Shown here one piece after another: positions 34,304 to 37,733 of a stretch of DNA of 64,000 bases. Under the pieces are notes generated by a model. That model worked only from the letters and a program-made list of their open reading frames with translations. It made no database searches and had not been told where the DNA came from. The stretch covers positions 1-64,000 of the forward strand of contig NZ_QETK01000005.1 in assembly GCF_003105155.1 (NCBI RefSeq), read 5' to 3'. Position 1 is the stretch's first letter. The number at the start of each line of letters is the position of its first letter. Source of the stretch: Pseudomonas sp. SDI (GTDB taxonomy: Bacteria; Pseudomonadota; Gammaproteobacteria; Pseudomonadales; Pseudomonadaceae). The position numbers and the translations under genes are program-made.

Positions 34304-34378
34304 ACGGGTGGCGATGGACGCGGGCAGTGGCAATTCGATATTGTGGCACGGCCTTCCCCGCAGATTGACCACTCACCC

Positions 34379-35413
34379 ATGATCCCCGATTGGCTTGCCG
34401 CTAGCGCCGTAGTTGTGCTGTTGACCCTGCTCGTGGGCGCCTGGCGCCGAGAGCGGCGCTTGCGTGCGCGGCTGCGCGACACCGAGGCGACGCTGGCCCG
34501 CGAGCGCCGCGCCGACGATGTCGAGCGTTACCAGCGTAGCCAGTACTTTGCCCGGATCGGCACCTGGGATTGGGACATCGACACCGAGCAGCTGTACTGG
34601 TCGGAAGCGATCTATGGCATGTTCGGTTACCAGGTCGGTGAGATTACCCCCAGCTACGAACTTTTCTGCAACAGCGTGCACCCCGACGACCGCGCCCAGG
34701 TGCGCGCTGGCGAGCTGCGCTGCATCCAGACCGGCGAGAACCACGACGAAGAGTACCGTGTGGTCTGGCCCGACGGCAGCGTGCGCTGGCTGCGCGAGAC
34801 TGGCAACATCGTCCGTAATGCCAACGGCGTGGCGGTGCGGATGATGGGCGTGGTGCGCGACATCACCGAGGAAAAGGCCTCGGCCAGCCAACTGCAACAG
34901 CTGGCGCATCACGACGCGCTGACCGGCCTGCCGAACCGTCTGGGCCTGGAGCGGCACCTCTCGCACAGCCTTGAACAGGCCCGCGCCAGCGGTGCCCGGG
35001 TGGCGCTGGTGTTCCTCGACCTGAACGGTTTCAAGGCGATCAACGACCTGCACGGGCATGCCATCGGCGACCAGGTGTTGATGTCGACCGCCGGACGGCT
35101 TAAGCAATTGCTACGTGCGGCCGATACCGTAGCGAGGATCGGTGGCGACGAGTTCGTGCTGATCCTCGAAGGACTGCCGCCTGGTCATGGCCTGGCGGTG
35201 GAACTGCAGGTGATCTGCAAACGGATTCTTACGGTGCTGGCCACGCCCATGCCGTCTTCGGTGGGTACCTTGCAGGTGGGTAGCAGCCTTGGCGTGGCGG
35301 TGTTTCCGGACCACGCCGCAAGCATGGACACGTTGATCCATCACGCCGACCTGGCGATGTATGAAGCCAAACGCAGTGGCGACAATCAGTACCGGGTTTC
35401 TGCGTCCTCTTAA
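34379..35413 (+). CDS. PAS-GGDEF diguanylate cyclase
   Basis: 344-residue membrane-anchored signalling protein. One N-terminal helix (LAASAVVVLLTLLVGAW), a coiled linker, a PAS/PAC domain (about residues 55-170, GTWDWDIDTEQLYWSEAI ... RMMGVVRDITEEK), and a GGDEF domain with an intact RIGGDEF active site. The inhibitory RxxD motif (RAAD) stands at the canonical five residues before GGDEF. It should make cyclic di-GMP with product inhibition. A two-component pair starts 23 bases downstream and may be co-transcribed. Confidence 0.92.
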   Translation: MIPDWLAASAVVVLLTLLVGAWRRERRLRARLRDTEATLARERRADDVERYQRSQYFARIGTWDWDIDTEQLYWSEAIYGMFGYQVGEITPSYELFCNSVHPDDRAQVRAGELRCIQTGENHDEEYRVVWPDGSVRWLRETGNIVRNANGVAVRMMGVVRDITEEKASASQLQQLAHHDALTGLPNRLGLERHLSHSLEQARASGARVALVFLDLNGFKAINDLHGHAIGDQVLMSTAGRLKQLLRAADTVARIGGDEFVLILEGLPPGHGLAVELQVICKRILTVLATPMPSSVGTLQVGSSLGVAVFPDHAASMDTLIHHADLAMYEAKRSGDNQYRVSASS

Positions 35414-35436
35414 ATTTTCCAATGCAGGTTGTGTGG

Positions 35437-37044
35437 ATGCTGGTGTACAGCCAAAAAAGCTTTCTGATCGTCGATGACTTCACCGACTTCCGCACCTCCG
35501 TCCGCTCGATGCTGCGGGAGATGGGCATCAAGGACGTCGACGTCGCCGAAAGTGGCGAAACCGCGCTGCGCATGTGCGCGCAGAAGCGTTATGACTTCAT
35601 CCTGCACGACTTCCACATGGGCGACGGCAAGAAGAACGGTCAGCAGGTGCTCGAAGACCTGATGCTCGACAAGCTGATCAGCCATGAAGCGATTTTTCTC
35701 ATGGTCACGGCCGAGAGCAGCCAGGCAGTGGTGCTCAGCGCCCTGGAACATGAGCCTGACGCGTACCTGACCAAGCCGTTCAACCGTCTCGGGCTGACCC
35801 AGCGGCTGGACAAACTGGTACAGCGCAAGACCCTGCTCAAGCCGATTCTGCAGGCCCTCGACCGTGGCCGCCCGGCCGACGTGCTGCTGGCCTGCGACAA
35901 CCTCTGCAAGCAGGACCCGCGTTTCGCCCCGTTGTGCCTGCGCTACCGTGCCGATGCGCTGGCGGCGTTGAACCGGCATGAAGACCTTGAGCGCTTCCTC
36001 AAGGCGATCCTGGCCAACCGGCCGACGCCGTGGGCCTATGCGGCGCTGGGCAAGCTGCTGTTCAAGCGTGGCCAGGCCGGCCAGGCCAAGGAAATTTACG
36101 AGCAGGCCATCAAGACCTTCGCGATGATGCCCGGCCTCTATGACGGCCTGGCCGAAGTGCTGGCCTCGGCCGGCGAAACCAAGCGCGCGCAGAGCATCCT
36201 CGAAGAGGCCGTGCGCCTGTCGCCGCTGGCGGTGCGCCGGCAGATGCAACTGGGCAAGCTGGCGCTGAACAACGCTGACTTCGACAGTGCTTCCAAGGCG
36301 TACCGGCAGGCGGTGAGCCAGGGCCAGAACTCGCGCTTCAAGGACCCGGAAAGCAACCTCGGCCTGGCCCAGGCGCTGATCAGCAAGAACCATGGCAATG
36401 GCCTGGATGCGCGTACGCGGGTGGAGATCAACCAGGTGCTTGGCGACGTTGCCAAGGAGTACACCGACGACCAGGGCTTGCAGGTGCGGGCGCGGCTGAT
36501 CAAGGCCACCGGCCTGGCCCAGGCCGGCGATGCCGAGACCGCGGCCAAGCTCACCGAAGCGGCGATTGCCCGGCTCGACAACATGGATCAGTTCTTCTCC
36601 GCCGAAACCGCGCTGGCGGTGGCCTCACAGTTGCAGCAACTGGGCCAGGCGTCGGCCGGCAGCGCCCTGTTGAAGAACTGCGTCGAGGTGTATGGCGATG
36701 ACCCGGCGGTGATGAAGAACATCGCCAAGCTGACCGACGATCCGAGCATTCTCGGCGCCGGCAACGAGGCCGTCGACCTCAACCGTCAGGGCGTACGTGC
36801 CTATCAGGCGGGGCAACTGGCCGACGCGCTGGGCCTGTTCCGCCGCGCGCTGGGCTTGCAGCCGAAGAACATCAGCATTGCGCTGAACACCGCCCAGGCG
36901 CTGTTGCGCCTGGGCGGCGAGAAGCCGCCGCTGGCGCTGCTGGAAGAGTGCCGCACGTGCCTGGGCAAGGTGGCCGGGATCCCCGACAGCGACCCGCGCT
37001 ACGAGCGCTATCGCAAGCTGCAGATCCGGGCGGTGAGCGTATGA
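35437..37044 (+). CDS. Response regulator with TPR output domain
   Basis: 535-residue protein. The receiver domain (1-125) has the acidic pair D13/D14, phosphoacceptor D58 (LHDFHMGDGKKNG), T91 and K113, so it should be phosphorylatable. The rest is a chain of TPR-like helices (for example LGKLLFKRGQAGQAKEIYEQA and LGKLALNNADFDSASKAYRQA), with no DNA-binding or enzymatic domain. It probably acts by protein contact. The start codon is uncertain: ATG 35422 is five codons upstream and neither has a strong ribosome site. Its stop overlaps the kinase start by ATGA. Confidence 0.87.
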   Translation: MLVYSQKSFLIVDDFTDFRTSVRSMLREMGIKDVDVAESGETALRMCAQKRYDFILHDFHMGDGKKNGQQVLEDLMLDKLISHEAIFLMVTAESSQAVVLSALEHEPDAYLTKPFNRLGLTQRLDKLVQRKTLLKPILQALDRGRPADVLLACDNLCKQDPRFAPLCLRYRADALAALNRHEDLERFLKAILANRPTPWAYAALGKLLFKRGQAGQAKEIYEQAIKTFAMMPGLYDGLAEVLASAGETKRAQSILEEAVRLSPLAVRRQMQLGKLALNNADFDSASKAYRQAVSQGQNSRFKDPESNLGLAQALISKNHGNGLDARTRVEINQVLGDVAKEYTDDQGLQVRARLIKATGLAQAGDAETAAKLTEAAIARLDNMDQFFSAETALAVASQLQQLGQASAGSALLKNCVEVYGDDPAVMKNIAKLTDDPSILGAGNEAVDLNRQGVRAYQAGQLADALGLFRRALGLQPKNISIALNTAQALLRLGGEKPPLALLEECRTCLGKVAGIPDSDPRYERYRKLQIRAVSV

Positions 37045-37733
37045 ACGCCAAGGGCGAAGGGCTGGAATTTTCCACGGTGATCGCGTCCACCGTGCATGAC
37101 ATGAAGAACTCCCTGGCCATGCTGATGCAGGCGCACGGTCAGTGGCTGGCGCGGTTGCCGGCAGCGCAGGGGCAGGGCGCCGAGCAGGCGGTGATCGAGC
37201 ATGAGTTCGCCCACCTCAATGGCATGCTGGTGCAACTGTTGGGCCTGTACAAATTGAACGTCAACCAATTGCCGATGTGTCCGGGCTATCACGAGCTGGA
37301 CGATTTCGTCGAAGCGCAACTGGCCGCGCATCAACAGGCCCTGGACAGCCGCGGGATTACCACGCGCTACCAGATCGATGCCTTCAACCCGCTGGGCTTC
37401 TTCGACCGTGAGCTGGTCAGTTCGGTGGTGTCGAATGTGCTCACCAATGCCATTCGCTATGCCGGTCACGCGTTGCTGATCACAGTGAGCGACGACGGTG
37501 AGCAACTGGCGCTGAGCATCAACGACGACGGGCCGGGTTATCCACAGGCGATGATCGACCGGCAGGCGGACTATGTGCAGGGCATCAATCCGCACACGGG
37601 CAGCACCGGGTTGGGGCTGTACTTCGCGTCGCGGATCGCCGCGCTGCACGAACGCAATGGCGTGCGCGGGCGGATCGAGATCGGCAATGGTGGGGCGTTG
37701 GGCGGTGGGATGTTTACCTTGTATCTGCCATAG
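37041..37733 (+). CDS. Minimal soluble histidine kinase
   Basis: 230-residue sensor kinase without a sensor or membrane domain. The H-box is STVHDMKNSLAML with H19, the N-box SNVLTNAIRYA, the G1 box NDDGPGYP and the G2 box GSTGLGLYFA; the C-terminus ends directly after the ATPase fold. The ATG overlaps the stop of the TPR response regulator, which is its likely partner. Any input must come from a partner protein. Confidence 0.88.
   Translation: MNAKGEGLEFSTVIASTVHDMKNSLAMLMQAHGQWLARLPAAQGQGAEQAVIEHEFAHLNGMLVQLLGLYKLNVNQLPMCPGYHELDDFVEAQLAAHQQALDSRGITTRYQIDAFNPLGFFDRELVSSVVSNVLTNAIRYAGHALLITVSDDGEQLALSINDDGPGYPQAMIDRQADYVQGINPHTGSTGLGLYFASRIAALHERNGVRGRIEIGNGGALGGGMFTLYLP

Follow-up and report, generated by a model that had tools for sequence, protein, structure and literature searches.

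On the 64,000-nucleotide stretch of Pseudomonas sp. SDI DNA analyzed here (the window; positions 1 to 64,000 of contig NZ_QETK01000005.1), a gene for a diguanylate cyclase is followed closely by genes for a receiver (REC)-TPR response regulator and for a histidine kinase that lacks a sensor. The question that this locus raises is which of these genes form a unit, and from where that unit is expressed. The original prediction was of a signaling module made of all three and working by protein contacts. Our analysis points to a different arrangement: it is likely that regulator and kinase, a conserved pair, are under the control of a sigma-28 (FliA) promoter lying in the gene of a dispensable cyclase, and that the promoter-bearing piece of this gene was kept after the cyclase was lost. 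The features concerned are the following:

34379..35413, forward strand: diguanylate cyclase, with its ATG at 34379 and its stop at 35413; Pfam PAS_3 (E 4e-24) and GGDEF (E 1e-45).
35100..35126, forward strand: candidate sigma-28 (FliA) promoter TTAAG-N15-GCCGATA, within the cyclase coding sequence.
35437..37044, forward strand: REC-TPR response regulator of VieB-like architecture; receiver (E 3e-17), then TPR-type families (Pfam).
37041..37733, forward strand: sensorless histidine kinase; DHp hairpin with H19 in HDMKNSL, plus an ATPase domain.

The gene calls are backed by translation, Pfam searches, AlphaFold2 models and start codons aligned with those of relatives, and the three predicted genes are indeed present. 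The regulator start that is kept in relatives, ATG 35437, lies 23 bases past the cyclase stop (an earlier in-frame ATG is found at 35422), and the kinase ATG at 37041 overlaps the regulator stop by 4 bases (ATGA).

To learn which genes belong together, their distribution was analyzed at two levels. Among 119 genus genomes, regulator and kinase were both found in 83, and neither was found without the other; each gave a single match at the thresholds used, and the two adjoin on one strand in all 83 loci. The regulator of G076 (P. brassicae; loci L074 / L215) is interrupted by a stop in a draft genome, which is either real or an assembly error. An order-level search gave a regulator match in 111 of 293 genomes. 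In a sample of 40 of these loci, made up mostly of best-scoring matches and not drawn at random, the kinase is directly downstream of the regulator and on the same strand in 37. As to the other three, the contig of L249 ends just past the regulator, and no kinase was found within the fetched stretch of L251 and L257. An outlier of the same sample, L259 (G328), carries a second kinase relative near the regulator on the opposite strand. The longest open reading frames (ORFs) of the order-level kinases span 210-307 amino acids, and 36 of the 37 have an HD/HE-x-x-N box. Since the pair recurs across genus and order, it is not a chance arrangement: a bare kinase beside a REC-TPR protein is an old, conserved two-gene unit. 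Neither protein has a recognized sensor or DNA-binding output, and hence the pair should act by protein contacts. The contact-based module of the original prediction thus holds for these two genes, and not for the cyclase.

We then analyzed the DNA ahead of the pair. Between 34301 and 35440 the sequence GCCGATA occurs once, at 35120, and is preceded by a correctly spaced TTAAG. The candidate -10 covers codons A248 and D249 of the cyclase, in the in-frame reading R-L-K-Q-L-L-R-A-A-D-T, and D249 is the aspartate of the RxxD site of c-di-GMP (cyclic di-GMP) inhibition. The FliA consensus of Pseudomonas is given as TAAAGTTT-N11-GCCGATAA in PMC7286023, and is also printed as TAAAAG-N15-GCCGATA (PMC3247240). 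The -35 of the window is TTAAG where the consensus has TAAAG, and the spacing between -35 and -10 matches that of FliA promoters. In the 4.84-Mb assembly of the window genome, TNAAG-N15-GCCGATA is present in 3 copies, and a control with the pattern written backward gave 0. The second exact copy (G000:C12:117990; L202) lies ∼100 nt before a chemoreceptor-like ORF, and the third (G000:C2:92105; L200) lies ahead of an ORF resembling an ABC transporter substrate-binding protein, with no obvious flagellar link; both ORFs were named by eye. Only 1 of the 32 GGDEF domains of this genome carries the site. Among cyclase relatives, all 7 that are intact and linked to the pair have it, compared with none of 25 unlinked ones (32 unlinked relatives were matched, 25 with loci examined; Fisher 3e-7).

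The fate of the site when the cyclase is absent was followed in 19 distinct P. putida group genomes, chosen by hand. A P. putida-type branch, formed by P. shirazensis and the genomes whose regulator starts MLQYG..., was excluded from this group; 8 matches to Streptococcus and Cyclobacteriaceae were left out of the relatives. Over 3500 nt, G511 matches P. palmensis exactly, as do G617 Irchel 3E13, G419 P. huaxiensis and G604 P. japonica, and each such set was counted once; G009 was merged with GM4FR, and G076 with P. brassicae. T(C/T)AAG-N15-GCCGATA is present upstream of the pair in 19 of 19 genomes. An intact linked cyclase is present in 7 of them (the window, P. japonica, P. defluvii, P. laurentiana, G642, G570 and G089), so that 12 have the site without an intact cyclase. 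In 7 of these 12, tblastn recognized a cyclase fossil:

G015: fossil of 63 amino acids, E 2e-14.
Paucimonas MAG (metagenome-assembled genome), P. bharatica and GM4FR: fossils, E 7e-6 to 1e-5.
P. fontis: fossil, E 2.5e-5.
Irchel 3E13: fossil, E 2e-4.
P. huaxiensis: fossil, E 8e-4.

In P. fontis, the closest relative of the window (94% by regulator, the nearest among named species), remnants of the first ∼26 codons abut the promoter piece, and the middle of the gene has been deleted. The named species form a natural series of intact gene, partial deletion and bare site. When the 12 cyclase-less genomes were compared with rows anchored on the site, in a test that is thereby partly circular, all 12 core letters proved invariant; of the spacer letters 3 of 15 were invariant, of those in the upstream flank 1 of 40, and of those in the downstream flank 0 of 60. 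With GCCGATA alone as anchor, each of the 12 has one copy at most 250 nt from the regulator, and TCAAG is found exactly 20 nt ahead of it in all 12. Genomes with and without an intact cyclase are interleaved in the tree built from the pair, with at least 5 changes, 4 of which are forced by well-supported branches; without regain at the same spot, at least 6 cyclase losses are needed, the P. putida-type branch included (P. shirazensis was labeled 'fossil' in this tree although its site is P. putida-type). Gene structure, conservation of the pair and of the site, and the fossils are read directly from the DNA. The simplest reading is that a promoter inside a gene outlived that gene more than once. 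It seems somewhat more probable than the opposite that the coding DNA of the cyclase feedback-inhibition site became the sigma-28 promoter of a neighboring motility operon, and that this promoter persisted in several lineages which lost the host gene independently.

Sites of this type also precede the pair elsewhere in the genus. At least 10 of the 12 consensus letters were found in 49 of 83 genus upstream regions, compared with 4 of 377 random windows and 3 of 249 shuffles; this count covered 300 nt, with the sites of the window and of G089 lying beyond that distance and the start of G076 being misplaced. Within 500 nt upstream, a relaxed pattern matched 64 of 83 genus genomes and 2 of 732 random windows, and a stricter pattern, which misses TAAG-N15 sites, matched 56 of 83 and 1 of 732. 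It is therefore probably from a FliA promoter that the pair is switched on. A transposon swimming screen in P. syringae DC3000 listed PSPTO_1911 (response regulator/TPR) with a PC1 of -0.56 and PSPTO_1912 (sensor kinase) with -0.54 (PMC11813219, Table 3), and placed both in the che group with cheY, cheA and cheB (PMC11813219). P. syringae genomes are listed as having one VieB-like regulator each, which in DC3000 is PSPTO1911 (PMC2222644). By analogy with this screen, the pair may promote swimming.

Several observations weigh against this reading. The dependence of the pair on FliA is a prediction from sequence, and 19 of the 83 genus genomes have no FliA-like site within 500 nt by the relaxed pattern. 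Order-level relatives are not enriched (at least 10 of 12 letters in 4 of 40, compared with 18 of 320 random windows); FliA control of the whole order-level family was rejected on this ground, and FliA control therefore looks genus-specific. PSPTO_1911 and PSPTO_1912 are likely to be the counterparts of the pair by uniqueness and gene order, not by sequence, and the genes followed up in the part of PMC11813219 available were others. At the position that is A248 (GCC) in the linked cyclases, all 25 unlinked ones encode T or S, and the absence of the site from them is therefore partly a protein difference. P. palmensis, P. aegrilactucae, P. brassicae, G007 and G096 carry the site in surroundings whose homology to the cyclase is weak or absent (no E below 6). 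Their flank match, judged by a site-anchored comparison because a whole-frame local alignment mostly caught the flank upstream of the cyclase start, was equaled by 33, 211, 211, 596 and 211 of 3000 random stretches, respectively, and the sites of these five genomes could therefore have another origin. To this are added the circularity mentioned above and the fact that the compared genomes are not independent of one another. Furthermore, the 19-genome group is paraphyletic in the pair tree, with the P. putida-type genomes, of which the tree has four including P. shirazensis, nested inside it, with full support, beside the G007/G570 branch. These genomes lack the cyclase and have TCATC-N14-GCCGATA instead, at about -70 to -90, so that the original core is not kept; L048, of the same type, has a further variant of this site. 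Since the branch nests in the group, we considered whether its site descends from the cyclase, but the letters give no support to this. Either a fossil was remodeled in this branch or a new site arose.

A different explanation would make the cyclase a functional member of a three-gene module, in which phosphorylated or TPR-bound states control c-di-GMP synthesis. It would fit the position of the cyclase on the same strand 23 nt from the regulator, its presence in 7 of 19 related genomes, the finding that nonsynonymous (dN) is below synonymous (dS) divergence in all 21 pairs of the 7 intact linked cyclases, and the general link between motility and c-di-GMP. Across relatives, however, the three genes do not co-occur as regulator and kinase do. 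A cyclase relative at E≤1e-60 is present anywhere in 34 of 119 genus genomes, and it adjoins the pair in 2 of 83 genus loci (6 of the 83 have less than 1.3 kb of upstream sequence). Of the 40 order-level loci, 1 has a GGDEF gene next to the regulator on the same strand, and 2 more have such a gene ∼2.6 kb upstream. Several lineages keep the pair without the cyclase, and none of 8 cyclase-less genomes searched has it elsewhere at E≤1e-60. The linkage of the GGDEF gene on which the original prediction depended thus fails in relatives, with adjacency rare in the genus and repeated losses in the group of the window. On this evidence the cyclase was rejected as a member, and we consider a three-gene module quite unlikely: the cyclase is a neighbor that hosts the candidate promoter, not a conserved module member. 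In a distant locus, L253 (G207), a partial GGDEF match was seen 83 nt upstream of the regulator on the same strand; it is possibly an independent cyclase neighbor.

The origin of the site itself has also been explained to ourselves in other ways. It might be a by-product of coding constraint on the GGDEF domain (RLKxxxRxAD), retained by chance in cyclase-less genomes after recent losses. In its favor, the part of the domain that holds the site is conserved, the intact cyclases are under constraint at the protein level, and the unlinked relatives differ by one amino acid at the -10. Against it, 1 of the 32 GGDEF domains of the genome has the site; in the 12 genomes that are free of coding constraint the flanks are scrambled and the core is intact; and the pair is preceded by FliA-type sites in other parts of the genus as well. 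We consider this explanation improbable. Alternatively, a real site may have been in this place before the cyclase, which would then have been built over, or recombined at, an ancestral regulator promoter. The FliA-type sites ahead of the pair across the genus, lineages without cyclase included, would agree with such an order of events. Against it, the cyclase gene is a full-length GGDEF gene in which the site falls two thirds of the way along, in frame and at the usual place of RxxD, seven cyclase-less genomes carry coding-derived flanks, and letter changes in an ordinary cyclase are simpler; we give this possibility little credence as well. If the preferred reading, a promoter in the cyclase gene that survived its host, is true, the locus would show selection on an intragenic FliA site, since the surrounding gene decayed and the promoter did not. 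It would then be an example, legible in the sequence itself, of a promoter that arose within a gene and was kept as a gene fossil, driving a VieB-like regulator with a sensorless kinase.

For the pair we infer promoter activity, phosphotransfer and a role in motility. The kinase would autophosphorylate on H19, and D63 of the REC-TPR protein would accept the phosphate. Through its TPR superhelix this protein would bind the kinase and/or a target, with an effect that depends on the phosphorylation state of the receiver, as for VieB. Transcription of the pair would be coupled by FliA to flagellum assembly, as the conserved sites suggest. In the P. putida group, a cyclase gene would have come to sit upstream of the pair, with the FliA promoter of the pair in its coding sequence; the cyclase would be dispensable, and several lineages would have lost the gene and kept a short promoter-bearing piece, with at least one nested branch having a differently spaced site.

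Known systems resemble parts of this scheme. VieB of V. cholerae is an inhibitor of the kinase to which it binds, acting on both autophosphorylation and transfer, and its receiver aspartate matters for this effect (PMC4352251). The likeness is one of architecture and gene neighborhood (REC then TPR, kinase beside): VieB of the VieSAB system also has an N-terminal receiver followed by TPR, has no DNA-binding output and is encoded with a kinase (PMC4352251). In contrast, its kinase VieS is a hybrid whose sensor domains are periplasmic, and the system includes VieA as a third partner (PMC4352251), whereas here the kinase is a bare 230-amino acid core and no VieA-like gene adjoins. By this analogy, the REC-TPR protein is expected to regulate the kinase and at the same time to serve as its substrate, replacing the missing sensor, and the effect may be either activation or inhibition. 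The original prediction had the TPR part perhaps turning phosphorylation on; VieB, a studied protein of this architecture, has an inhibitory effect on its kinase (PMC4352251). The class IV, FliA-dependent flagellar regulon of Pseudomonas shares its consensus with the site of the pair, which is not named as a member in the text available of the two consensus papers (PMC7286023, PMC3247240). Our results would place an order-wide kinase/REC-TPR pair in this regulon, beside a published motility score, and would give the pair a testable role. In E. coli, intragenic FliA promoters are known, e.g., the one in flhC driving motA (PMC4183435), and there, as proposed here, a sigma-28 promoter within a coding gene drives the next gene. 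Intragenic FliA sites are common in E. coli and few of them, 5 of 30, alter RNA levels (PMC4183435). Unlike flhC, the host gene was here lost in several lineages while the promoter fragment was kept. Intragenic FliA promoters are thus a known kind. Their evolution is reportedly the title subject of a 2018 paper. In the literature searched, outside of which most subscription papers lay, we found no mention of the pair as FliA-dependent, of a promoter outliving its gene or of a host gene lost repeatedly around such a promoter.

The proteins have the parts that such a scheme needs. As predicted originally, the kinase has no input domain and the output of the regulator is TPR only. A Pfam search of the kinase at E≤1 reported HATPase families alone, with neither an input domain nor a HisKA match, and its AlphaFold2 model (predicted local distance difference test, pLDDT, 84) consists of a two-helix DHp hairpin and an ATPase domain, and nothing besides. 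It has the conserved H, N, G1 and G2 boxes and the DHp-CA fold of HisKA-type kinases. Its H19, D20, N136, D162, G164, G190 and G192, and D18, D19, D63, T96 and K118 of the regulator, are kept in at least 80 of the 83 genus sequences. At the order level the catalytic residues of both proteins are largely kept, with G190 absent from the listed columns. The model of the regulator (mean pLDDT 91), like that of the kinase of good quality, shows the receiver followed by helices up to the C terminus. Structure searches with the two models returned generic TPR superhelices and kinase cores. CpxA, HK853 and ZraS share the DHp hairpin and ATPase fold (Foldseek E 2e-13 to 2e-10 among the 50 matches listed); the kinase of the window differs from them in having no sensor or transmembrane part and no Pfam HisKA match. 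The cyclase is by its motifs a candidate active enzyme: GGDEF is intact and the inhibitory RxxD site is present (RAADTVARIGGDEF; RxxD read by eye). A single membrane helix was read, also by eye, at its N terminus.

A second upstream element was observed, the dyad TGGC-N5-GC(C/T)A (TAGC allowed), which is present within 250 nt upstream in 44 of 83 genus genomes, compared with 14 of 772 random windows; L041, L079, L089 and L099 are among the loci that have it upstream of the regulator. The window has the following copy:

34328..34340, forward strand: degenerate copy of the dyad with one mismatch, read by eye; the search pattern does not match it.

In the six intact genomes besides the window, the dyad is found at -1211 to -1267 from the regulator start, at or just before the beginning of the cyclase. 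In the 12 cyclase-less genomes it is found at -205 to -247 in 9 and at -391 in G015, and the pattern is unmatched in P. fontis and G096. From these positions it follows that the cyclase sits between the dyad and the pair. The dyad resembles the AmrZ operator. The text of the F113 paper describes the AmrZ motif just as two GC-rich regions (PMC3986905).

Downstream of the pair, two neighbors recur at ∼3.7-5 kb from the midpoint of the regulator in genus loci such as L049, L095 and L108, both named by eye: an MFS-like transporter in 43 of the 83 genus loci, and a PilZ/YcgR-like protein, encoded on the opposite strand, in 43 of 83.

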